64,000 nucleotides of DNA from Arcobacter sp. LA11 (GTDB lineage: Bacteria; Campylobacterota; Campylobacteria; Campylobacterales; Arcobacteraceae): positions 124,001-188,000 of the forward strand of contig NZ_BDIR01000001.1 of assembly GCF_001895145.1 (NCBI RefSeq), given 5' to 3'. The position numbers were made by a program, and so were the translations under genes. Positions 34,511 to 62,276 of the stretch are shown in pieces. How positions within the stretch are numbered: the first letter of the stretch is position 1; each line of letters starts with the position of its first letter. A model generated the notes under the pieces. That model was not told the origin of the DNA and did no database searches. It saw only the letters and a program-made list of their open reading frames with translations.

Positions 34511-37500
34511 TTAATGAGATAAATCGCAATCTACCATTTTCCCTTTTTGTTTTAATGCCAAGATATAAAATATTGCAGGTATTATGACTAAGGTTAAGAA
34601 CGCAGAAGATATCATCCCTCCTATCATCGGAGCAGCAATTCTTTGCATAACTTCACTTCCTACTCCATTTATATACATAATAGGAATTAGACCACCAAGT
34701 ATTGCAAACAGTGTCATAAGTTTTGGACGTAGTCTTAGAACAGCTCCTTTATATATAGCATGGAAGATATGTGCTTTTTCTGCTTTAATACATTTATTTT
34801 TTAGTTCAACCATTGCTTCATGTAGATAAACTATCATTACAATAGAAGTTTCCGCAGCAATTCCAAGTAGGGCAAGAAAACCAACAATAACAGCAATTGA
34901 TATATTAAAGTTTAAATATTCAAGATAAAAGATTCCACCTGTTAGTGCAAATGGAAGAGTAAAGAATATTATCATTGTGTATGTAATATTTCTTAGTGCA
35001 AAATATATTAGAATAAATATAATTACGAAGGTTAAAGGAATAATATAAATCAATCTTTGCATTGCTGATTCTAGATATTCACTTTGTCCAGCCCATTCAT
35101 AATAGAAGCCTTCAGGAAGTTTTATATCCTTTAAAAGTTCTTTAGCTTCATCTTTATATTGTTTTGCAGAGATACCATTCTTAGGTGTAATATAGATAAA
35201 GTTAACATTTAAAGCTTTTTCTGATTTAATAACAGAAGGTCCTTCTTCATATATTAATTTTGCAAACATTTCAAGAGGTTGAAATCCAAGTTTTGTTTTT
35301 ATTTGTAAGTTATTTAAAACTGTTATATCTTCTCTTTGTGTTGTCTCAAATCGTAAACTTATAGGGTATCTTTCAAGACCATCTAAATAAGTAGATATCT
35401 TTGCTCCTGCAACTCCTAGTGAGATAGTAGAAAGTACATCGTTTTTAGTAATTCCAAATCTTGCAAGCATCTCTTCTTTTACTTCAATATTTAAATAGTA
35501 TCCTGAGTTAATTTTATCAGTTGATACCGAAAGTGTTTTATCAAATTTTTTTAACTTCTGTTCAATTTCTCCAGCAGTTACTTCTAATTTTTCATGATTA
35601 TTACCATATAATTTTATTCCTAAAGGAGTTCTAATTCCAGTAAGAAGCATATCAATTCTTCCTCTAATTGGATATGTCCAAGAGTTTATAAGACCAGCTA
35701 CTTGAAGCTTTTGATCCATCTCATGCATAAGCTTTTTATAGGTCATTCCTTCTCGCCATTGATCTTCTGGTTTAAATGTAACAATAGTTTCAATCATAGC
35801 AAGTGGAGCAGGGTCAGTTGCTGTTTGGGCTCGTCCTGCTTTTCCAAAAACTGTATCAACTTCGGGGAATGATTTTAAAACTTTATCTGTTTTTTGTGTT
35901 AACTCTTTTGCTAAATCAATACCAAGTCCATAGGGAGTTACTGGCATATACATAAAAGTCTGTTCATTCATCATTGGCATAAATTCCCAGTTCTGTTTTT
36001 TATAAACTGGATATGCAAGAATTATTGTTCCTATAAAAATCAAAACAATAAGATATCTAAGTTTCAATGACAATTTTAAAATAGGAGAATAAAGAAAAAT
36101 GAAAAACTTATTTAATAGGTTTTTATCTTCTCTTAAAAGTCTGCCACGAATAAGAAAAACCATAAGTATTGGTACTACTGTAATAGATAGAATTGCTCCA
36201 CTAATCATCGCAAAAGATTTAGTAAATGCTAAAGGAGTAAATAATCTTCCTTCTTGTCCTGTTAAGGCAAAGATTGGTAAAAAAGACACAACTACAAGAA
36301 TAAGTGCAAAAAATATAGGACGTCCTACTTGTTTTGCAGATTTGATTATAATTTTTATTCGTTCTTCATTTGAAATATTTTCTTTTCCTTGAAGATATTT
36401 GTGTGCATTTTCGACCATGACAATAGTTGCATCAACCATTGCACCAATTGCAATTGCAATTCCTCCAAGACTCATAATATTTGAACCTATTCCAAAAACT
36501 TTCATAAGTAAAAATGTAAATAAAACTGTTATTGGAAGAGTTATGATAATAATAAGTGCAGATCTAAAGTGAAATAGAAATAAGGCTGTAACAATCATAA
36601 CAATAATAGACTCTTCTATAAGAGTATTTTTAAGAGTATCTATTGCTTTATCAATCAAAGAAGTTCTATCATATGTCTCAACTACTTCAACTCCATCTAC
36701 ATTTAATGTTTTAATTTTTTCTTTTACTGCTTTTATAACCGCATATGGATTTTCTCCATATCTTACAATAACAATTCCTCCGACCGTTTCCCCTTGGCCA
36801 TTTAAATCAACCATACCTCGTCTATTTGTAGAAGTGATATTTACTTCTGCTATATCTTTTATTTTAAGTGGAATTGAACTATTTGTTTTAATAGTAATAT
36901 TCTCAATATCTACAATACTTTTTAGATAACCTTTAGCTTGAATCATGTGTTCAAAACCATTTTCTAAAATGATTCGTCCACCTTTTTCATCATTATTAAA
37001 AGTAAGTGCTTTTTTAACATCTTGAATAGAAATATTGTATTGAACTAATTTATCTTGATTTAGTGTAATCTCATAGTTTTTTATAAAGCCACCAATAGAT
37101 GCAATTTCACTTACTCCATCTACTCCAAGTAAAGCATACTTGTAGTAATAGTCTTGTAATGTTCTTAACTCATCTAAAGATTTAGTATCTGATTTTAAAG
37201 CATATTCATAAGCCCAACCCACACCTGTTGCATCTGGACCAATTGCAACATTTGCACCATCTGGAAAAGTTCCTTGAAGTTGTGAAAGTTGTTCTAAGAT
37301 TCTATTTCTAGAATCATAAAGATCAGTTCCATCTTTAAATATAATATATATCAAAGCATTTTGAAAAGAACTCATAGCTCTTACTGTATCTATGTTTGGC
37401 AAAGACATCAAGTTTGATATTAGTGGATATGATACTTGTTCTTCAATTGTTTTTGGACTCTGACCTGCCCACTTAACTTGAACAATTACTTGAGGAGGTG

Positions 37501-37627
37501 AAAGATCAGGTAAGGCATCAAGGCTTGTATTTTTTACTGCCCAAAATGATGCAACTGTTAAAACGATAACAGAGAAAAGAATTAGGAATTTATTTCTAAT
37601 ACTATATGAGATTATACTTTCTACCAT
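34511..37627 (-). CDS. CusA/CzcA-type heavy-metal efflux RND pump
   Basis: 1038 residues with 12 expected membrane helices and two large periplasmic loops. Family markers: SLPNIDTVRAMSSF, GGIAIAIGAMVDATIVMVENAHK (quoted region near 390-412, the helix-4 motif with its Asp and Glu) and EFMPMMNEQTFMYMP. Methionines in the periplasmic part and the YtkA-like first gene favour Cu(I)/Ag(I) over Zn/Co, but this is inference. It is the last gene of a four-gene unit with the fusion protein 9 bases upstream. The pump moves metal across the envelope using the proton gradient. Confidence 0.92.
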   Translation of the reverse strand: MVESIISYSIRNKFLILFSVIVLTVASFWAVKNTSLDALPDLSPPQVIVQVKWAGQSPKTIEEQVSYPLISNLMSLPNIDTVRAMSSFQNALIYIIFKDGTDLYDSRNRILEQLSQLQGTFPDGANVAIGPDATGVGWAYEYALKSDTKSLDELRTLQDYYYKYALLGVDGVSEIASIGGFIKNYEITLNQDKLVQYNISIQDVKKALTFNNDEKGGRIILENGFEHMIQAKGYLKSIVDIENITIKTNSSIPLKIKDIAEVNITSTNRRGMVDLNGQGETVGGIVIVRYGENPYAVIKAVKEKIKTLNVDGVEVVETYDRTSLIDKAIDTLKNTLIEESIIVMIVTALFLFHFRSALIIIITLPITVLFTFLLMKVFGIGSNIMSLGGIAIAIGAMVDATIVMVENAHKYLQGKENISNEERIKIIIKSAKQVGRPIFFALILVVVSFLPIFALTGQEGRLFTPLAFTKSFAMISGAILSITVVPILMVFLIRGRLLREDKNLLNKFFIFLYSPILKLSLKLRYLIVLIFIGTIILAYPVYKKQNWEFMPMMNEQTFMYMPVTPYGLGIDLAKELTQKTDKVLKSFPEVDTVFGKAGRAQTATDPAPLAMIETIVTFKPEDQWREGMTYKKLMHEMDQKLQVAGLINSWTYPIRGRIDMLLTGIRTPLGIKLYGNNHEKLEVTAGEIEQKLKKFDKTLSVSTDKINSGYYLNIEVKEEMLARFGITKNDVLSTISLGVAGAKISTYLDGLERYPISLRFETTQREDITVLNNLQIKTKLGFQPLEMFAKLIYEEGPSVIKSEKALNVNFIYITPKNGISAKQYKDEAKELLKDIKLPEGFYYEWAGQSEYLESAMQRLIYIIPLTFVIIFILIYFALRNITYTMIIFFTLPFALTGGIFYLEYLNFNISIAVIVGFLALLGIAAETSIVMIVYLHEAMVELKNKCIKAEKAHIFHAIYKGAVLRLRPKLMTLFAILGGLIPIMYINGVGSEVMQRIAAPMIGGMISSAFLTLVIIPAIFYILALKQKGKMVDCDLSH

Positions 37628-37636
37628 AAGACTTTC

Positions 37637-38638
37637 CTACCAGTCATCGTCATCTGAACTGTAAAGTCCATTTGTAATAGCATCAGAATCAAGTAAGAAC
37701 AGAGCATTGTTTATTACTTGTTGTCCTTCTTCTATCCCGTCTAATATTTCATATTTATTTGAAGCTATTCTTTTTGCTTTTATTTCTATTGGTTCAAACT
37801 CTGTTTTTGAAAGGTATTGAAAAACAAAGTACTTATCCCCTTTTCTAAGAACTGCAGTTTTAGGCAAGGTTAACATCTCTTTTTTGACTGCTTTTAGATT
37901 TACTTTTCCAAACATATTTGCATAAAGTTTTAAATCTTTATTTGGTATCACAAATCTAACATCAACAGTTTTTGTTTTTAAATCAAGTGTTGGGTAAATC
38001 ATATCAACTTTTGAATCTATAGGATTTTTGATTCCATCTATATATATTTTTGCCTTCATATCTTTTTTTATAAATGATAAATCTTTTTGATATATTGAAG
38101 CAATAAACCAAAGTTCATCTAAAGATGCAAGTTGAAGTAAAAGTTTTCCTTTTTTTGCGAAACTTCCTTTATTTATATTTTTTTGTAAAACTATAGAATT
38201 TGTTGGAGAATAAAATGAAATATTTTTTATAGGTTTTTTTGATGTTTTAATTTTTCTTATAGTTGAAGAACTTATATCTAATGATTTTAATTTTTCAATA
38301 TTACTATTTACTAAAGATTTATTAAATTTTTTAGCAATTTGAATTTCTTGTTGAATTGAAGTTATTTCATCAGAATAGATTGAAAAAAGTGGATTTCCTT
38401 TTTTTATAGTTTTATATTGTTCGTTTGCATTCAAATTTGTAATATATCCATCAAATCTAGTGACGATATCATAAATTTTTGTCTCATTTAAAGCAGTAGT
38501 TCCATAAAAGCTTTTTAAAGTACCTATTTGCTCTTTTTGTACTTTGATGAGCTTTTTATTGAATAACTGTGAAACTTCAAGAATTTGAGCATTTGCTATT
38601 GTAAAGCCCAATAGTAGGGTACTAAATATTAGTTTCAT
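37637..38638 (-). CDS. CusB-like periplasmic membrane fusion protein
   Basis: 333 residues with a signal peptide (MKLIFSTLLLGFTIANA). A barrel-sandwich hybrid is suggested by YDIVTRFDGYITNLNANEQY (about 57-76) and SFYSPTNSIVLQKNINKGSF, with a helical hairpin between them and beta-barrel segments after. It links the RND pump to the outer-membrane channel. The C-terminus is an unusual acidic SSDDDDW. It overlaps the outer-membrane factor stop by one base. Shorter than E. coli CusB (407), lacking an N-terminal metal-binding extension. Confidence 0.85.
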   Translation of the reverse strand: MKLIFSTLLLGFTIANAQILEVSQLFNKKLIKVQKEQIGTLKSFYGTTALNETKIYDIVTRFDGYITNLNANEQYKTIKKGNPLFSIYSDEITSIQQEIQIAKKFNKSLVNSNIEKLKSLDISSSTIRKIKTSKKPIKNISFYSPTNSIVLQKNINKGSFAKKGKLLLQLASLDELWFIASIYQKDLSFIKKDMKAKIYIDGIKNPIDSKVDMIYPTLDLKTKTVDVRFVIPNKDLKLYANMFGKVNLKAVKKEMLTLPKTAVLRKGDKYFVFQYLSKTEFEPIEIKAKRIASNKYEILDGIEEGQQVINNALFLLDSDAITNGLYSSDDDDW

Positions 38639-39852
38639 TATATTTCCTTAGTAAAATAGATAGATTTTGCAAGTGCCGAGAAATATTTCTCTTTTTCATC
38701 GACAGCTTTTAATCTATATTTTATAATTTCATTAAAATTGTTTATTAAAGATTTTGAGTCAACTTTTTTATAAGAGTTAAAACTATTATAAGTTTCTAAC
38801 ACTTTTTGAAGCTGTTTAATTTTTGGTATAATATTTTTATTAATAATATTTAAAGTTATTATTGAGTCATTGATGTTTTGTTGATAAGTTTTAATCTGAT
38901 TTTTAAAAGTTAATTTCATATCTTTTAATTTATTGTTAATCTCCAAAGTTTTGAATTTTGCTTTTCTAGATTTTATATCTTCACTTCCATAAACTGATAA
39001 TGGAATTGCAAAAGCAACATTTACATAATCTTCAAACTTTTCATCTCTTTGAACATATGTTAAAGAGACTTTTATATCAGAATTTTTTTTCTCTTTTTCA
39101 AGAATAGAAATATTTTCTTGTTTTTTTGATACTTGCGTTAGTGATAAAATTTTTGGATGAGATTCTATATCTTTAGAAAGTATAATCTCATTTATATTTG
39201 TATGGATATTTATATCTTCTATTTTTTTATATGTAATTTGTTCTAATTTTAGATTAATTGTATTTAACATAGTTTTTAATTTTTGTGATTTTAAATTTAA
39301 TTCTTGGTACATAATTTGAGTATTTAGAATTTGTGTTTGTGATGCTTTGTTATATTTATAAAGCTCTGTTAATAAGTTTTCAAGTTTTGAAGTGTTTGAT
39401 TTAAACTCTTCAAAAAGAGATAACCTCTCTTCTAATAATTTTATTTTGTAAATATATTCATATATCTTTGATTTATATTGTAGCTTTTTATCTTCAATAG
39501 AATATTTTGATATTTGATAATCATTTGTTGCAATTTTTTTTTCAATCTCAAGTTTATCTCCCATAGGAATAACTTGTGAAAAACCTATAAATTGACCTTG
39601 CATGGGTTCTAAATCTCTTCTTGTTATATCATCAAATTGTATATCTGTAGCTCCAAAAGTAAGAGTTGGATTTTTCCACTTTGAAGAAAGATTTATTTGT
39701 TCTTTTGCACTTTTTATTGATTCTTCTAATGCTTTTAATGTATAGTTATTACTGTAAGTGGTTTCTACAATATTATCTATAGTGATATTTTGGGCATTAA
39801 TCAATGATAAGTTTGCAATTAAAACTGATATAAGAAGAGATTTTTTAAACAT
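38638..39852 (-). CDS. TolC/CusC-family outer-membrane efflux channel
   Basis: 404 residues with a signal peptide (ending SLINA). Long amphipathic helices with two repeats of the outer-membrane factor fold are visible: SNYTLKALEESIKSAKEQI in the first half, and SHPKILSLTQVSKKQENI in the second. PTLTFGATDIQ and DVKVSLTY-like strands would form the barrel. It completes the tripartite metal-efflux complex. Gene order (YtkA-like, channel, fusion protein, pump) supports joint export function. Confidence 0.82.
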   Translation of the reverse strand: MFKKSLLISVLIANLSLINAQNITIDNIVETTYSNNYTLKALEESIKSAKEQINLSSKWKNPTLTFGATDIQFDDITRRDLEPMQGQFIGFSQVIPMGDKLEIEKKIATNDYQISKYSIEDKKLQYKSKIYEYIYKIKLLEERLSLFEEFKSNTSKLENLLTELYKYNKASQTQILNTQIMYQELNLKSQKLKTMLNTINLKLEQITYKKIEDINIHTNINEIILSKDIESHPKILSLTQVSKKQENISILEKEKKNSDIKVSLTYVQRDEKFEDYVNVAFAIPLSVYGSEDIKSRKAKFKTLEINNKLKDMKLTFKNQIKTYQQNINDSIITLNIINKNIIPKIKQLQKVLETYNSFNSYKKVDSKSLINNFNEIIKYRLKAVDEKEKYFSALAKSIYFTKEI

Positions 39853-39860
39853 AATATTGC

Positions 39861-40241
39861 CTATAGATTTACACTAGATCTAACTTTATGCACTTTTCCA
39901 TCTGCTGTTTTAAACATAAGATGATATTGCCAAGTTCCACCCATTGAAAAATTAATCATGAATTTATATTTTCCATCAATTAGTTTTGCTTTATCCTTAT
40001 ATTCCATATATGGCATACCTGGCATTTCAGGCATAAAGAATTTTGCTTTTACTTTTGCATCTGTTACTGCTTTGCCATCTTTCTGCAATGTTGCAAAGAA
40101 AATGTTATCTCCTACAACTAAAGATTTTTCAGATTTCAGTTTAACTGTATATCCATTTTTCTCACCTGTTTGAGCTACGGGCTCTGCATTTAAAAGACCA
40201 AATGTCAACGCTAAAATAGAAATTATTTTTAATAACTTCAT
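39861..40241 (-). CDS. YtkA/FixH-like periplasmic protein, first gene of the metal-efflux operon
   Basis: 126 residues with a signal peptide ([19 protein letters not shown]). The mature part resembles YtkA-like immunoglobulin-type domains: [16 protein letters not shown], then [15 protein letters not shown], where a Met/Pro cluster resembles copper-binding sites, and [17 protein letters not shown]. Found in many Cus-type operons. It might receive periplasmic copper or help the pump, as CusF does, but the fold differs. Start ATG 40241 has AAGGAG upstream, held in the loop of an 11-bp hairpin. Confidence 0.78.
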
Positions 40242-45533: not shown

Positions 45534-46193
45534 ATGAAAATATTATTACTTGAAGATGATACTTTATTAAATGAAATCATAGAAGAATTTTTAACTGATT
45601 TAGATTATGATGTTATTTCAACTTATGATGGAGAAGAGGCTTTAGAAACTATCTATGATAACTCTTTTGACTTGTTAATACTTGATGTAAATGTTCCATC
45701 TTTAAGTGGTTTTGATCTATTAAAAGGGCTAAAAGACAATAGTATTAATATCCCTACAATTTTTATAACTTCACTTCATACTTCAAAAGATATGGAAAAA
45801 GGTTTTAATTCTGGTGCTGATGATTATATAAAAAAACCTTTTCATTTAAGTGAATTAAAATTACGAATAAACAATATAAAAAGACTTCGTCAAATTGAAA
45901 GTTCAGGGTTTGTAAAATTGAATATGGATATTTCATATAATTATGATACGAAAGTTATTACTGTAGAAGAGATAGAAACTTATTTATCAAAAACAGAATC
46001 AAAGGTTTTTGAATACTTTATAAAAAATCAAAATAAATCAATCTCAATTGAAGAGATATCTTTAAATAACTGGATATATGATGATGTACCTACTGCTACA
46101 ACTATTAGAACATATATAAAGAACTTACGAAAAGTATTAGGAAAAGATAGAATCACTACTATTAAAGGAATAGGATATAAACTAAATCTTTAA
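45534..46193 (+). CDS. OmpR-family response regulator (paralogue 1)
   Basis: 219 residues. Receiver domain (1-118): acidic pair EDD (7-9), phosphoacceptor Asp in LLILDVNVPSLSGF, and conserved Lys in DYIKKPF. The C-terminal winged-helix domain (about 125-219) ends in VPTATTIRTYIKNLRKVLG and GIGYKLNL. It is nearly the same length as paralogue 2 and clearly a duplicate. It runs opposite to kinase 1 (divergent) and converges with kinase 2, overlapping its stop by 4 bases. Cognate kinase is probably kinase 1, kinase 2 or both. Confidence 0.93.
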   Translation: MKILLLEDDTLLNEIIEEFLTDLDYDVISTYDGEEALETIYDNSFDLLILDVNVPSLSGFDLLKGLKDNSINIPTIFITSLHTSKDMEKGFNSGADDYIKKPFHLSELKLRINNIKRLRQIESSGFVKLNMDISYNYDTKVITVEEIETYLSKTESKVFEYFIKNQNKSISIEEISLNNWIYDDVPTATTIRTYIKNLRKVLGKDRITTIKGIGYKLNL

Positions 46194-47377
46194 AATGTTA
46201 GAGTAAAAGTTGTTCCTATTTTTTCTTCAGATTCTACTTCTATTTTTATATTATACTCTTGACAAATATGATAAACAATATTTAATCCAATACCAAAACC
46301 ACCTTGATCTTTAGTTGCTCTATAGTAACGGTTGAAAATATCTTTTAAGAGTTCTTTTTTTATTCCTATTCCGGTATCTTCTATTGAAAGCGTATTATCT
46401 TTAAGTTTTATATTTATTGTTCCACCAATATTATTGTATTTGATAGCATTTGATATGATATTGTTAACAAGTCTAATAAAGTTTTCTTTATCTATTAAAA
46501 ATGTGCTGGGTTCTAAGTGTGATATTATTTTAAGTTGTTTCTTTGAAGCAAAAGATTCAAAATATTCTATTTGTTCTTTAAGTATTTTATCTAGCTGTAG
46601 ATTTGATGGAGTTGTTTTTTTTGAACTATCTTGTAAAAAGAGATAGACTAAATCTTTATATATCTCTGATATTCTTTTTGCACTTAGATTGATTCTTTGC
46701 ATATTTTTTTCTGTAGGAATAGCATCTTTACTTGTACTCATCAAAATTGCAGTAATAGGAGTATTTAGTTCATGGGTTGTATCTTTTATAAAGTTATTTA
46801 GCTTTCTTCTTTCATTTATTATAGGAGTAATAAATAAATTTGCTAAATAGTAACCAATTATTGCAATAATAGAATAGATAATTACAAAATAGAGAATAAT
46901 ATCTTCTATAAGTTTTGTGATTTTGTCTTTAAAGAAATTTTCTTTTATAGCTATATGATAAACTCCAAGATGTCCTCTAGGCGTTCCATCTACTAGGATA
47001 TAGTTTTCATCAATTTTTTGAAGTCTTTCTCCTAGGTTTATTCTATCATCAATATTTCCAGCTAGTCTTCGATGATTTTTATCATATAAAGCATAATCAT
47101 ATTTTATAAACTTTGCAAGTTTTGTTGTGTTTATAGTAAGTTCAGACATATGTGCATAGATAATACTTGATGAAACTTTTGAAGCAACATTTTGCATATT
47201 TGAAGTGATCAAATCATAGTGAAGTTTTGATTCTATTTTATAAAAAAGATAGAAGATAACTGACAATAATATAAAAGAAGAACCAAGATATAATCCTAGA
47301 AATCTAAAAAAAGTATTTTTTTCACTTCTTGTTAAATCGATAACCAACCCCTTTGATTGTTTCAATGTATTCATCAC
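46190..47377 (-). CDS. Sensor histidine kinase (paralogue 2)
   Basis: 395 residues from ATG 47377, which overlaps the response-regulator 2 coding sequence by 56 bases; no good Shine-Dalgarno precedes that ATG. By comparison with paralogue 1, translation might instead begin nearer the IDLTRSEK segment, after AAAGGGG. Two membrane helices (about 28-48 and 150-172) flank a short periplasmic sensor. H-box DTTHELNTPITAIL, N-box NNIISNAIKYN, G2 GGFGIGLNIV. It is an ArsS-like kinase with no PAS or HAMP evident. Cotranscribed with response regulator 2. Confidence 0.9.
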   Translation of the reverse strand: MMNTLKQSKGLVIDLTRSEKNTFFRFLGLYLGSSFILLSVIFYLFYKIESKLHYDLITSNMQNVASKVSSSIIYAHMSELTINTTKLAKFIKYDYALYDKNHRRLAGNIDDRINLGERLQKIDENYILVDGTPRGHLGVYHIAIKENFFKDKITKLIEDIILYFVIIYSIIAIIGYYLANLFITPIINERRKLNNFIKDTTHELNTPITAILMSTSKDAIPTEKNMQRINLSAKRISEIYKDLVYLFLQDSSKKTTPSNLQLDKILKEQIEYFESFASKKQLKIISHLEPSTFLIDKENFIRLVNNIISNAIKYNNIGGTINIKLKDNTLSIEDTGIGIKKELLKDIFNRYYRATKDQGGFGIGLNIVYHICQEYNIKIEVESEEKIGTTFTLTF

Positions 47378-47981
47378 CTATAATTTTTCGAATATTCTTT
47401 ATATATGTTCTAATAGTTGATGAAGTTGGTGCACCTTCATAAGTCCAAATATTTGAAGATAATTCATCTTGTGATACGCATCTATTTGTATTGTTTGCAA
47501 GATATTTTAAAATTTGTGCTTCTTTTAGGGGAAGTTTTGTTTTTATTGAGTCATTATCTATAAAATTTAGTTTAGTATTAAACTTTATATTATCATCGAT
47601 AATTATTTCATCTTCTTCTAAATGTAGAAGTCTTTTTATATTGTTTATTCTAAGTTCTAACTCTTTTAATTCAAAGGGTTTTTTTAAATAATCATCTGCT
47701 CCAGCTTTGAACCCTTCTTCCATATCATCAACAGAATTAAGTGAGGTAATAAATATTGCAGGAGTAGTTATATTGTTTTCTCTTAAATTTTTTAAAAATT
47801 CAAAACCTGTTATACTTGGGACGTTTACATCTAATATAAGTAAGTCAAAATGTTCATCATATATATACTCACTAGCTTTTAAACCATCGTATACTGAGAT
47901 TACTTCATATTCTAAAGAGTCTAAAAACTCTTCTATTATTTCATTTAAAATTAAATCATCTTCTAATAGTAATATCTTCAT
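47322..47981 (-). CDS. OmpR-family response regulator (paralogue 2)
   Basis: The frame is open to 48023, but ATG 47981 gives MKILLLEDDLILNEI, the same start and same 219-residue length as paralogue 1. TATACT (minus strand, 47989-47994) ends 7 bases before this ATG, suggesting a leaderless mRNA. Receiver motifs EDD, LLILDVNVPSITGF and DYLKKPF are intact. The winged-helix domain ends TIRTYIKNIRKIIG and GVGYRFNKK. It shares an operon with kinase 2 and is divergent from yceI, a possible target. Confidence 0.92.
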   Translation of the reverse strand: MKILLLEDDLILNEIIEEFLDSLEYEVISVYDGLKASEYIYDEHFDLLILDVNVPSITGFEFLKNLRENNITTPAIFITSLNSVDDMEEGFKAGADDYLKKPFELKELELRINNIKRLLHLEEDEIIIDDNIKFNTKLNFIDNDSIKTKLPLKEAQILKYLANNTNRCVSQDELSSNIWTYEGAPTSSTIRTYIKNIRKIIGDEYIETIKGVGYRFNKK

Positions 47982-48078
47982 AAAAAGAAGTATAACATAT
48001 AATAAAAATTTATATCTACACATTGACTACACAGAACTTTATTAAAATTCAATTATCAAACAAATCAAGGAGTGAAAA

Positions 48079-48657
48079 ATGAAACTATTAACTAGTGTAA
48101 TTGCAGCGACAGTTTTATCTTTTAGTTTAGCTAATGCTACGCCTCATTCATTAGATGCAGGTCATTCAGAAGTTGGATTTTCTGTAAAACATTTAATGAT
48201 TACTAATGTAAAGGGTGAATTTAACGAATTTGATGCGACTATTGATTTCGATTATAAAACTAAAACATTTAACAAGTTAAATGCAGTTATTCAAACAAAG
48301 TCAGTTGATACGGGAATAGTAAAAAGAGACAATCACTTAAGAAGTGAGGACTTTTTTCTAGCAGATAAACATCCTCAGATTACTTTTAATATGAAGTCAT
48401 ATAAAGGTGATGGTGAAGAAGGTGTTATGATTGGTGATTTAACAATTAGAGGTATTTCTAAAGAAGTAAAACTAAATGTTGAAGAAATAGGTACAATTAA
48501 AGATCTTCAGGGTAATAACCGTGTTGGATTTACTTTAAAAGGGAAAATTAATAGAGGTGATTTTGATCTTAAATGGAATAAAGCCTTAGAACTAGGTGGT
48601 TTTGCAGTAGGTGAAAAAGTAAAACTTGAAGTTGAAGTTCAAGCTATTGAACAATAA
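48079..48657 (+). CDS. YceI-family periplasmic protein
   Basis: 192 residues with a signal peptide (MKLLTSVIAATVLSFSLANA) and AAGGAG upstream. The mature lipocalin-like YceI domain begins HSLDAGHSEVGFSVKHLM and has DNHLRSEDFFLADKHPQITF and LTIRGISKEVKL, all family hallmarks. YceI proteins bind isoprenoid-type lipids in the periplasm and respond to base or acid stress. It is divergent from the response regulator 2 operon and upstream of the metal-peptide operon, but has its own spacing of 70 bases from it. Confidence 0.94.
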   Translation: MKLLTSVIAATVLSFSLANATPHSLDAGHSEVGFSVKHLMITNVKGEFNEFDATIDFDYKTKTFNKLNAVIQTKSVDTGIVKRDNHLRSEDFFLADKHPQITFNMKSYKGDGEEGVMIGDLTIRGISKEVKLNVEEIGTIKDLQGNNRVGFTLKGKINRGDFDLKWNKALELGGFAVGEKVKLEVEVQAIEQ

Positions 48658-48690: not shown

Positions 48691-48696
48691 TATAAT
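48691..48696 (+). promoter_or_regulatory. Probable -10 of the Cys-rich peptide operon
   Basis: TATAAT 30 bases before ATG 48727; the Shine-Dalgarno AAAGGGA lies between. Confidence 0.45.
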
Positions 48697-48726
48697 AACC
48701 AAACTTATAAAAAAAGGGAAAATAAA

Positions 48727-49038
48727 ATGAAAAATACAAAAATTAAATTAGCAGGTATTCTTTTAGGAGCTGCATTGGCAAGTACAGGTGCATATGCAGG
48801 TGAAAAAAGTGGTTCTTGTGGTGCTGGTAAATGTGGTGGTGACATGAAGAAAACTGAAAAGAAAATGGATGGTTCTTGTGGTGCTGGTAAATGTGGTGGC
48901 GACATGAAAAAAGACGGTAAGAAAATGGATGGTAAAAAAATGGACGGTTCTTGCGGTGCTGGTAAATGTGGTGGCGATATGAAAAAAGATGGTAAGAAAA
49001 AAATGTCAGGTTCTTGTGGCGCTGGTAAATGTGGGTGA
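48727..49038 (+). CDS. Cys-rich repetitive precursor peptide (HvfA/bufferin-like RiPP substrate)
   Basis: 103 residues with a signal peptide (1-24, ending STGAYA). The mature part has four copies of GSCGAGKCG separated by MKK/KKMDG spacers. Eight Cys lie in Gly-rich settings close to the EGKCG-type motifs of HvfA and bufferins. Known members are modified by a DUF692 (MNIO) enzyme to give copper-binding groups. The next two genes are exactly such an enzyme and a DUF2063 partner, so this is very probably their substrate. The stop falls directly after KCG; removing one G of GGG (49033-49035) would add EMAKNRN before a stop at 49058-49060, so the end may be frameshifted. Confidence 0.85.
   Translation: MKNTKIKLAGILLGAALASTGAYAGEKSGSCGAGKCGGDMKKTEKKMDGSCGAGKCGGDMKKDGKKMDGKKMDGSCGAGKCGGDMKKDGKKKMSGSCGAGKCG
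48811..49038 (+). repeat. Four tandem coding repeats in the precursor peptide gene
   Basis: Units starting GGTTCTTG(T/C)GG(T/C)GCTGG begin at 48811, 48871, 48946 and 49009 (spacing 60, 75 and 63 bases). The last unit is cut short by the stop. Confidence 0.9.
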
Positions 49039-49086
49039 AATGGCGAAGAATCGTAATTAAGTAAAAAATAAAAGGCAAAAAAATTA

Positions 49087-49908
49087 ATGATAAATATTGA
49101 AGGATGTGGTTTAGGATTAAGAAGTGATTTTCTTTTAGATGTAAAAAAGAGTAATTTTCAACCTGATTGGTGGGAAGTTACTCCAGAAAATTGGATGCAT
49201 ATGCCAAAACTTTTTGAGAAAGCATTTGAAGAAGCAGTTTTTTCTAGACCTACAATAGCTCATGGTTTATCATTATCAATAGGATCTGTTGACAAACTCA
49301 ATCGTAAGTTTGTTAAACAGGTCAAAGAATTTTTAGATAGATACAATATAGAATACTATTCTGAACATCTTTCTTTTTCATCATTTGATGGAAAACAATC
49401 TTATGAACTTCTACCTGTTCCAATGACTAAAAAAATGGTAAATCATATTAGTGATAGAGTAAAAGAAGTTGAGGATATTATTCAAAGAAACTTAATACTT
49501 GAAAATGCTACATATTATTATGTACCTTATTCTGAGATGAGAGAAGTTGATTTTATAAACGAAGTACTTGAAAAGTCAGGTGCAAAAATGCTTCTTGATG
49601 TAAACAACGTTTTTGTAAATTCAGTAAATCATACTTTTAAAGCTAGAAAATTTATAGATGAAATTGATAAAAGTAAAGTAGCGTACATGCATATGGCAGG
49701 ACATTTTCATGATGAAGATTCAAATATGAAAATAGACTCTCATGGTATGCCTATAAACTCTGGAACTTGGAAGTTATTAGAATATACTTTAAAACAAATA
49801 AACGCTCCTGTTATGATAGAAAGAGATAACAATATCCCTCCTTTAGAAACTTTAGCAGATGAGTATAAGCAGATGAAAAAGATTGTTAAAAGAGTTCAAA
49901 ATGGCTAA
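49087..49908 (+). CDS. DUF692 multinuclear iron oxidase (MNIO; HvfB/BufB-like)
   Basis: 273 residues forming a TIM-barrel-type MNIO domain. Likely metal ligands are visible: AHGLSLS (His near 60), YYSEHLSF (Glu, His), LENATYY, MLLDVNNVFVN, HMAGHFHDE, DSHGMPI and MIERDNNIP. These correspond to the conserved His/Asp/Glu/Asn set of DUF692 enzymes such as MbnB. The expected role is oxidative modification of cysteines in the upstream peptide, producing thiol-derived copper ligands. It starts 48 bases after the peptide stop; the DUF2063 gene overlaps its end. Confidence 0.92.
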   Translation: MINIEGCGLGLRSDFLLDVKKSNFQPDWWEVTPENWMHMPKLFEKAFEEAVFSRPTIAHGLSLSIGSVDKLNRKFVKQVKEFLDRYNIEYYSEHLSFSSFDGKQSYELLPVPMTKKMVNHISDRVKEVEDIIQRNLILENATYYYVPYSEMREVDFINEVLEKSGAKMLLDVNNVFVNSVNHTFKARKFIDEIDKSKVAYMHMAGHFHDEDSNMKIDSHGMPINSGTWKLLEYTLKQINAPVMIERDNNIPPLETLADEYKQMKKIVKRVQNG

Positions 49909-50596
49909 ATCTAATATGATAGAAAAAGATATTCAAGGTAGATTTTTTGATATTTTAATAGACCAAAAAGATGGCTTTGATGGTACAGTTTTGAATGTGT
50001 ACCAAAAACTTGTTTTTATGAGATTTGATGAGGTTATTAGAAACTCTATGCCTTTATTTGTTGAATATATATCAAATGCCGAAATAGAAAAAGCTATCAT
50101 ACTTTTTATGAAAAATACGCCTGAAACTCCTTTTGTTTGGCAGGTTCCCAATGATTTTAGAAAGTTTGTAAAAAAAGCAAAACTATTCCATGATAGAAAA
50201 TATTTATATGAACTTTTATATTATGATTGGATAGAAGTTGAAATTTATATGAGAGAGTATAAATTAAAAAAGTTAGACAAGTTCAAGTGGAAAAATAGTT
50301 ATACTTTTTCAAAATCTGCAAGAATTAAAAAATTTCAATATGATTTGATAAACTCAGATTATCAAACAAAAAGAGAAAATTATGTATTGATTTATTATGA
50401 TTTTGATGAAAATACAGTTGTATATAGGGAAATTAACCCTTTAATTTTTTATCTATTAAAATCTTTAGATAATAAAGATACAATTGAATCTAAACTAAAA
50501 ATATTATGTAAAGAGAATGAAATAGATTTAAAAGAAGCAAAAACACTTTTAAAGGCTTCTTTTGAAGAGTTATATAAAAAGAGAGTTTTCTTTTAA
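49901..50596 (+). CDS. DUF2063-type partner of the MNIO enzyme (HvfC/BufC-like)
   Basis: The frame opens at 49883, but ATG 49901, overlapping the DUF692 stop (ATGGCTAA), is the better start; 231 residues. The N-terminal helical part (VLNVYQKLVFMRFDEVIRNSMPLFVEYI, about 30-57, seen as a DUF2063-like helical bundle) and YELLYYDWIEVEIYMRE fit the family. The C-terminal half (about 150-231) resembles a winged-helix/PqqD-like peptide-recognition region (LIYYDFDENTVVYREINPL). In related systems this protein assists the MNIO enzyme in binding precursor. No DoxX-type fourth gene follows. Confidence 0.82.
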   Translation: MAKSNMIEKDIQGRFFDILIDQKDGFDGTVLNVYQKLVFMRFDEVIRNSMPLFVEYISNAEIEKAIILFMKNTPETPFVWQVPNDFRKFVKKAKLFHDRKYLYELLYYDWIEVEIYMREYKLKKLDKFKWKNSYTFSKSARIKKFQYDLINSDYQTKRENYVLIYYDFDENTVVYREINPLIFYLLKSLDNKDTIESKLKILCKENEIDLKEAKTLLKASFEELYKKRVFF

Positions 50597-60643: not shown

Positions 60644-62149
60644 TTATAATCCTAAAGATTCTAATGTTTTAAGTGTTAATGCACCTTGATTTAAGTTTTT
60701 ATCTTTTTGGTATGCATTTACAGCAGCTTTAGTTTCAGAACCATATACACCATCAATCATAGTGATGTTGTATTTTTTATTTTGTAAAGCTCTTTGTAAT
60801 TTAGCAACTACATCAGGAGTTGTATTTGTTTCACATAAGATTTCTTGCCATCTTAAGTAAGGCTCAGCATTTTTTACTTTTGTTTGGTATGTTTCATAAA
60901 CTGCTGGAACAGCTACTTTATTCTCACGTGCAGGAGTATCTATAACTCTTGTTTTTACCATTTTACAAATTGCAGGAATTTTAACTTCTTTAGTTGTTGC
61001 AGGAGTTGCAAGAACTTTTTTAGCTACAGTTTTGTAAACAGCAGGAATTTTAACTTCTCTTGTTGTTGCAGGAGTAGCTAGAACTTTTTTAGCAATTGTT
61101 TTGTAAACAGCAGGAGTTTTAATCTCTTTAGTAGTAGTTTCTGTTGCAAGAACTTTTTTTGTAATAGTTTTGTAAACAGCAGGAGTTTTAACTTCTTTTG
61201 ATGTAGGAGCATTATTAAGTGCTCTAGTTTTAACTACTTTGTAAACAGCAGGAATTTTAATCTCTTTAGTATAAGCATCTTTATCTAAAACTTTTTTAGT
61301 AACAGTTTTATAAACAGCAGGAACTTCAACTAAACACATGATATCTCCAGTAGAGTTATCAACTTTTTCAATTTCACCTCTACCTTTTTTCCATGTAGTA
61401 TATGCTGGAGATACTAAAACTTTTTCAGTAACAGTTTTATAAGTAGCTGGCATAGTAACTAATTTTGTTTTTTCAGGTTCTACCATAATTTTTTCACTAT
61501 CAAGTTTATAAGTAGCTGGCATAGTAACTAACTTAGTTTTTTCAGGCTCAACCATAATTTTTTCAGTAACAGTTTTATATGTAGCTGGAACAGTTACTAA
61601 TTTAGTCTTTTCAGGTTCTACCATAATTCTTTCAGTAACAGTTTTGTATGTAGCAGCAACTGGAATTAACTTAGTTTTTTCAGGCTCAACCATAATTTTT
61701 TCAGTAACAGTTTTATATGTAGCTGGAACTGGTACTAACTTAGTGCTAGCTTCTCTAATTGTTACTTTCTTTTCTACAACTTTATATGTTGCAGGTGTAA
61801 TTGTAATATTAGATTTAGCTTCTTTAATTAGTCTTTTCATTGGTTTAGTTTCATATTTAGCTGGAACTAAAACTTTTGCGTAACACTCTCCTGCTTGGGC
61901 ATTTGGTGGTACAAGTGAATTTGCAACCGCATTACCATCTTTAGTCTCAACTTTTGACATCATTGGTTTAGAAGCAGAGTTTTCAAGAGATGCGATTCTC
62001 TGTTCTTTTGTTTCTAACTGTTGAGTTAACTTTTTAATTTCTTGTTCTTTTTGCATTAACGCTTCACTTGAATTGTTAGTAAAAGAACAACCTGTAACAC
62101 TGATCATAAGTGCAGCAGCTACTGCAGATATTTTTAAATATTGAGTCAT
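60644..62149 (-). CDS. Repeat-rich lipoprotein with C-terminal peptidoglycan-binding domain
   Basis: I choose ATG 62149 (501 residues), which has AAAGGG upstream. A lipoprotein signal ends at SVTGC. A short coiled-coil (KEQEIKKLTQQLETKEQ) follows, then about 14 repeats of some 22 residues around P-A-x-Y-K. The first block repeats TEKIMVEPEKTKLV; the second repeats KKVLATPATTKEVK. Each block opens with a Cys (GECYAKV, DIMCLVEV) and closes near a Trp segment (YTTWKKG, YLRWQEI). The last about 60 residues (KLQRALQNKKYNITMIDGVYG) are a PG_binding_1 domain. It probably links outer membrane to cell wall. Divergent from the OmpA-like gene. Confidence 0.85.
   Translation of the reverse strand: MTQYLKISAVAAALMISVTGCSFTNNSSEALMQKEQEIKKLTQQLETKEQRIASLENSASKPMMSKVETKDGNAVANSLVPPNAQAGECYAKVLVPAKYETKPMKRLIKEAKSNITITPATYKVVEKKVTIREASTKLVPVPATYKTVTEKIMVEPEKTKLIPVAATYKTVTERIMVEPEKTKLVTVPATYKTVTEKIMVEPEKTKLVTMPATYKLDSEKIMVEPEKTKLVTMPATYKTVTEKVLVSPAYTTWKKGRGEIEKVDNSTGDIMCLVEVPAVYKTVTKKVLDKDAYTKEIKIPAVYKVVKTRALNNAPTSKEVKTPAVYKTITKKVLATETTTKEIKTPAVYKTIAKKVLATPATTREVKIPAVYKTVAKKVLATPATTKEVKIPAICKMVKTRVIDTPARENKVAVPAVYETYQTKVKNAEPYLRWQEILCETNTTPDVVAKLQRALQNKKYNITMIDGVYGSETKAAVNAYQKDKNLNQGALTLKTLESLGL
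60870..61830 (-). repeat. Array of about 66-bp coding repeats in the lipoprotein gene
   Basis: Near-identical DNA units encode PATYKTVTEKIMVEPEKTKL (upstream half) and PAVYKT-KKVLATPATTKEVK (downstream half). Identity is highest among the central copies, which could recombine and vary in number. Confidence 0.8.
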
Positions 62150-62276
62150 TGTTTCCCTTTTCTTTAATATGTGAGAGTATATTATCATAAAAATAATAAA
62201 ATAATTGTGTAATTAGTAATAAAATTGGTAATTTTATGATATAATTTTCAAAATTTATAAAAATTAGGAGTGAAAA

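Follow-up and report, generated by a model that had tools for sequence, protein, structure and literature searches.

Captophorins are among the commonest RiPPs. The characterised products of an MNIO and its PME1 partner all carry a 5-thiooxazole and generally bind copper (PMC13097082). In the HvfABC system of Haemophilus influenzae (oxazolin), the precursor HvfA carries AEGKCGEGKCG, and residues N175, D242 and H244 of HvfB are each essential (PMC13419390). In the FonABC system of Fontimonas thermophila (fontiphorin), which is of the captophorin class, the catalytic base of FonB is D249, and FonBC accepts alanine at repeat position 1 and alanine, arginine or threonine at position 3, and requires a small residue after the cysteine (PMC13097082). 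Clusters of this kind are covered by a landscape paper (PMC12452194) and by the captophorin paper (PMC13097082); in a word search, neither of them proved to mention Arcobacter or Campylobacterota, and the former does not mention Campylobacter. The locus described here lies in the window, that is, the whole stretch of 64,000 nucleotides from the marine bacterium Arcobacter sp. LA11 that was analysed. In our judgement it is likely to be an HvfABC-type captophorin cluster (a captophorin being a Cu-associated peptidic thiooxazole metallophore) that works with the Cus copper efflux pump.

The precursor, the enzyme and its partner

The locus contains, on the + strand, an hvfA-like precursor gene (48727..49038; 103 aa, stop TGA), an HvfB-like (DUF692) MNIO gene (49087..49908; 273 aa; PF05114, 291.7 bits) and a PME1/HvfC-like partner gene (49901..50596). 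The reading frame of the partner was listed from a TTG at 49883; the likely start is the ATG at 49901, which overlaps the MNIO stop. The original prediction of a 103-residue peptide with four GSCGAGKCG units, a DUF692 enzyme and an overlapping DUF2063 gene is borne out in full between 48727 and 50596, and its core reading, an HvfABC/bufferin-like and probably copper-related system, holds. Judging from synteny, a gene for a YceI-family periplasmic protein (48079..48657, +; PF04264, 145 bits) is likely to be the first gene of the operon. The locus is not a product of chance, because about 35 Arcobacteraceae genomes show the order precursor-MNIO-partner, and because the repeats are conserved.

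No DoxX gene was found 3' of the partner, where the next gene encodes an AraC regulator (50650). The original prediction had noted this absence from the operon correctly, but as a distinguishing feature it fails, since the characterised fon cluster also lacks a DoxX gene (PMC13097082) and since HvfX is encoded on another contig of the window's genome (G000:C7:43834-44196; 122.5 bits, cut-off 80). HvfX adjoins hvfABC in more distant relatives (L046 and L047). At another locus (L157), which belongs to a genome lacking both MNIO and partner (G085), an HvfA-like precursor gene has HvfX directly after it, and then a gluconate-dehydrogenase-subunit-3-like gene and one for a GMC oxidoreductase.

The precursor begins with a probable Sec signal peptide, MKNTKIKLAGILLGAALASTGAYA (48727..48798, +), which was judged by eye and is conserved in relatives. 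Its eight cysteines are arranged in four pairs, all inside four exact GSCGAGKCG units (48811..48837, 48871..48897, 48946..48972 and 49009..49035, +), such that a Sec-signal precursor with repeated GKCG-type motifs stands directly 5' of the MNIO gene. The NCBIfam model of HvfA-type repeats, NF050137, is passed (32.2 bits against a cut-off of 19.5); a Pfam search of the precursor gave no match, and hence no DUF2282, and structure prediction rendered it disordered (pLDDT 43). There is no exact EGKCG with an acidic position 1, which FonBC does not need in vitro: in each pair, position 1 holds S or D for the first cysteine and A for the second, and position 3 is serine rather than lysine at half of the cysteines. 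The repeats of other Campylobacterota are DGKCG or KGKCG. Two cysteines per repeat had been taken originally as a departure from known systems, which was wrong given the doubled motif of HvfA itself (PMC13419390). Nor is the chemically different product that had been suggested indicated, in view of the tolerance of FonBC at positions 1 and 3 (PMC13097082). SCG and AGKCG both satisfy the FonBC rules, although serine at position 3 is not among the FonBC variants reported.

After the TGA of the precursor gene, there is an in-frame tail, N-G-E-(D/E/Q) (window 49036-49056), after which there is, as a rule, one free codon and then a stop. It is conserved in 12 genomes from three genera (that of the window, G064, G063, G057, G036, G055, G056, G058, G061, G062, G083 and G065), in which four out of four third positions of the tail codons vary as against one out of eight other positions (p=0.01), and in which every precursor gene ends in TGA. 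The tail might be explained by readthrough, by selenocysteine or as a ribosome-binding site of the MNIO gene. This last role does not suit the window, where the tail is too far from the MNIO start. Selenocysteine was rejected: there are tRNA-Sec candidates, with scores near the gathering score, but three folds gave no SECIS-like hairpin.

The MNIO was aligned with 3BWW and about 60 relatives, the reference sequences being 3BWW (PDB) and an environmental Moraxella plasmid. Its ligand-type residues are kept (H59, H94, E139, D171, N173, H206, D217, H219 and E245), as is the catalytic base, D247. The alignment conserves the equivalents of N175, D242 and H244 of HvfB and of D249 of FonB, these equivalences having been mapped via the RRD, LDVNN, DTHG and ERDFN motifs of 3BWW and not via the FonB or HvfB sequences. 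The loss of metal ligands from such an alignment had been named at the outset as a finding that would count against the reading; every ligand is present, and the reading stands. The best NCBIfam model for the enzyme is HvfB, and the equivalog cut-offs of NCBI are reached neither by HvfB (313.8 bits, cut-off 360) nor by HvfA over its whole length (17.1, cut-off 95) nor by HvfC (76, cut-off 142), so that the proteins of the window can be classed, on these scores, as members of the HvfA, HvfB and HvfC families and not as strict equivalogs.

Two positions in the substrate pocket differ from the Lys-Cys type, with Ser13 standing for Arg16 of FonB and Asn248 for Phe250. Such changes, together with the fact that half of the cysteines follow serine and not lysine, might be taken to mean that, with motif and pocket both drifted, the MNIO installs a group other than a 5-thiooxazole (e.g., an oxazolone/thioamide or another cysteine rearrangement). 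We consider this very unlikely: alanine variants of FonB at Arg16 and at Phe250, as well as F250D, still yield the 5-thiooxazole (PMC13097082), asparagine occupies the Phe250 position in all the Campylobacterota enzymes examined (with the exception of one histidine), including those with KCG repeats, and the match to the MbnB model is weak (50.5 bits, cut-off 325).

The residue at the Arg16 position varies with the repeats. It is arginine (once lysine, once threonine) in most lineages with D/E-x-KCG repeats, aspartate, glutamate or asparagine in a lineage rich in K-G-KCG, and serine or alanine where the repeats are mostly neutral. This pattern fits the published model, according to which Arg16 meets the repeat residue Glu1, but it is a suggestion. 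The MNIOs with aspartate, glutamate or asparagine belong to genus g23 (L060-L064, L067 and L079) and pair with KGKCG-rich precursors, which suggests a possible charge swap between enzyme and substrate there. Across lineages, the raw correlation of charge between position 16 of the MNIO and the first position of the repeat is suggestive (Spearman 0.61, n=57), but a phylogenetically corrected test had only four independent pairs, which showed nothing, and a general pairing is not claimed here.

The partner matches PF22106 (NGO1945_C) with 32 bits (cut-off 27), falls just below the cut-off for PF09836 (DUF2063; 25.3 bits against 27.2), and has HvfC as its only NCBIfam model. The best Foldseek match of its AlphaFold model (pLDDT 87.8) is 3DEE (the PME1 protein NGO1945), with a TM of 0.77 by target; 3DEE and TglI are the only matches with an E-value under 0.001, and the RRE proteins PqqD and TbiB1 match more weakly. 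The Foldseek matches therefore point to an architecture with a DUF2063-like N-terminal domain and an RRE-type C-terminal domain. If the modelled fold is a guide, the RRE-type domain would present the precursor to the MNIO, which, with its two-iron site and O2, would convert the eight cysteines of the four SCGAGKCG units into 5-thiooxazoles, as FonBC and HvfBC do with theirs. The sub-equivalog scores, the changes to Ser13 and Asn248 in the pocket, and the serine at repeat position 3 would all count against such a captophorin reading.

The copper efflux neighbourhood and its proposed regulation

That a Cus-like efflux operon lies 8 kb away was correct: some 8 kb separate ytkA-cusCBA (34511-40241, -) from yceI-hvfABC, and the intervening genes include two two-component systems. 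The operon starts with a gene for a YtkA-like protein (39861..40241, -; PF13115, 91 bits), followed by those for a CusC-type outer-membrane protein (38638..39852, -; PF02321, 78 bits), a CusB-type adaptor (37637..38638, -; PF16576, 168 bits) and a CusA-type RND pump of the Cu/Ag type (34511..37627, -; TIGR00914, 1003 bits). The pump scores 941 bits with CusA as against 448 with ZneA, and methionines are kept in its alignment to CusA, which we take to correspond to M573, M623 and M672. Relatives have the two sets closer together: among those MNIO-bearing loci for which the flanking genes were read, cusA is directly before (yceI-)precursor-MNIO-partner in genera g2, g5, g13, g16 and g19, and one locus (L012) has the order cusC-cusB-cusA-yceI-precursor-MNIO-partner.

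A direct repeat, YACACA-N5-YACACA, with a period of 11 bp, is found upstream of yceI, of the precursor gene or of the cus operon in Arcobacteraceae. In the scanned loci, 19 of its 20 copies are 26-89 nt before yceI, the precursor gene or ytkA and on the right strand, and in one genome (G072) it precedes both the hvf and the ytkA-cusC operons. In the window, the repeat CTACACATTGACTACACA (48016..48033, +) is the single exact match and is a probable operator for an OmpR-type response regulator; the region upstream of ytkA there has only a degenerate version. Tandem half-sites of this sort are typical of OmpR-family regulators. A response regulator of this family (47322..47981, -; PF00072/PF00486), which is encoded divergently to yceI at a conserved position, is the candidate regulator, and it is paired with a sensor histidine kinase (46190..47377, -; PF02518/PF00512). 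Under copper stress, this neighbouring two-component system would bind the direct repeat before yceI and turn on yceI-hvfA-hvfB-hvfC, and the peptide, having left via Sec, would bind Cu(I) in the periplasm and hold the copper safely for the Cus pump to expel. An observation that counts against such a scheme, by analogy, comes from Nitratiruptor, which also belongs to the Campylobacterota: its cusA and cusB were not induced by copper (PMC10092412).

The peptide repeat of the precursor also occurs in a PCuAC copper chaperone in a relative (G035, L168:4478-5074, -; PF04314, 130 bits), which ends in three C-terminal MSCGQGKCG repeats and is in an operon with SCO1. This fusion ties the peptide repeat to copper independently of MNIO. 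The copper role, originally an inference, is now much better supported than by an operon 8 kb away because of the cus synteny, the shared direct repeat and the PCuAC fusion. That the system serves another metal (silver, zinc or cadmium) or oxidative stress instead seems to us extremely unlikely: silver is also moved by RND pumps of this class, and captophorin loci elsewhere respond to gold and to oxidative stress (PMC13097082), but the pump here is nearest to CusA and far from ZneA, and the same repeats are associated with PCuAC and SCO1.

Precursors without the enzyme pair

An MNIO match is present in 37 of the 104 Arcobacteraceae genomes, and most of these 37 also have precursor-type sequences. 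Seventeen genomes have a precursor and no HvfB-type MNIO, one of them (G049) being marginal, so that there are at least 16. In these 17, PF05114 gave nothing but a remote partial match inside a sugar-biosynthesis-like cluster (in G034), and a partner alignment search showed the partner gene to be absent from all of them; seven of the 17 assemblies consist of one or two contigs. The precursor of 15 of the 17 is at the syntenic site between cus/yceI and MATE, with the MATE, homoserine dehydrogenase and aminotransferase genes after it; that of G085 lies elsewhere, next to HvfX. According to the landscape paper, it is rare for such precursors to occur when the genes for MNIO and partner are missing, and modification may be unnecessary in these cases (PMC12452194); within the Arcobacteraceae, this situation is common.

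On the flanking-gene tree, the MNIO switches between present and absent at least four times (three of these forced by starred branches), and in genus g2 two MNIO-bearing genomes are nested among MNIO-less ones; the tree of MNIO plus partner did not clearly point to a recent donor from outside for these two. Repeated loss of the MNIO would be the simplest reading, and one loss plus one re-gain in g2 may be an alternative.

In the MNIO-less precursors, cysteine codons show 15 synonymous as against 4 replacing changes and other codons 72 as against 92 (Fisher p=0.006), a comparison based on few, related sequence pairs that gives support to, but not proof of, purifying selection on the cysteine codons. 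Two of these precursors (in G004 and G020) have gained CxC-rich stretches. Moreover, the window's genome encodes a second, secreted protein of 171 aa (C20; L087:1285-1800, -), which has two GSCGAGKCG units between metallothionein-like cysteine stretches and a relative with 77% identity in G065. The genome has one MNIO, for which this protein is a possible second substrate. Within the window, at 60644-62188 (-), is the gene for a 514-aa protein with many VPATYKTVTEKIMVEPEKTKL-type repeats and a peptidoglycan-binding-like end.

The unmodified peptide probably has a function of its own, because enzyme-less precursors appear to be under selection and because of this second, metallothionein-like repeat protein; in the enzyme-less relatives, the same peptide would probably bind copper via free thiols. 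These observations could be taken further, to the effect that the peptide works mainly in unmodified form, as a periplasmic thiol peptide that resembles a metallothionein and belongs to the Cus system, with MNIO and partner being optional, repeatedly lost, and serving only to tune affinity or redox stability. The precursors left at the syntenic site without the pair, the selection on their cysteine codons, the gained CxC-type stretches and the composite protein would all agree with this, but we regard it as unlikely, as the MNIO, in the genomes that have it, keeps an intact active site and is found, with its partner, beside the precursor. Modification is therefore under selection in the MNIO-bearing lineages; this reading and the captophorin reading preferred here are not opposed and can hold together. 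For the Arcobacteraceae as a whole, it is a tentative proposition, which we would entertain but not yet favour, that the secreted SCGxGKCG peptide is primarily an unmodified copper-binding part of the cus operon, with thiooxazoles an option that was lost several times while the peptide was still selected.

If the peptide did act unmodified first, the Arcobacteraceae would constitute a natural experiment on what modification adds. Close species with and without the modifying pair have the same peptide at the same site beside a copper pump, and the biological contribution of the thiooxazole is therefore directly testable by moving one gene pair. Caution is also called for with the database name "oxazolone/thioamide-modified RiPP metallophore", which is given to precursors in genomes without a modifying enzyme.

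Comparison with known systems

The locus is best seen, by analogy, as a Campylobacterota variant of the HvfABC/captophorin kind and not as the source of a new product, and 5-thiooxazole chemistry is to be expected of it. It resembles the oxazolin system in having a secreted precursor with paired GKCG repeats, followed by an MNIO with conserved ligands and by a DUF2063/RRE partner; it differs in having SCGAGKCG where oxazolin has EGKCGEGKCG, in lacking an adjacent HvfX, in its tie to cusCBA, yceI and a two-component system, and in scores that are under the equivalog cut-offs. With fontiphorin, it shares three genes without DoxX, repeats of the Lys-Cys type and the catalytic aspartate, whereas serine and asparagine replace Arg16 and Phe250 and the acidic position 1 is mostly lost from the repeats.

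Bufferins 1 and 2 (BufABC) have in common with it an MNIO with a DUF2063 partner, a Sec signal and a copper role. However, the precursor has neither a DUF2282 match nor the 6/12-Cys layout, and the BufB score is 249 bits as against a cut-off of 310, so of the original HvfABC/bufferin-like label, the HvfA/EGKCG-like half is retained and the bufferin-like half has to be dropped. Methanobactin (MbnABC) is similar in its MNIO chemistry on cysteine, but the window has no leader-type MbnA and no MbnC, the partner being PME1, the MbnB score is weak, and the biology of methanobactin is the opposite one of copper uptake. Clusters of this type were known already, and the locus is one of their variants; what is new is the link to cus, the probable operator and the precursors that lack the enzymes.
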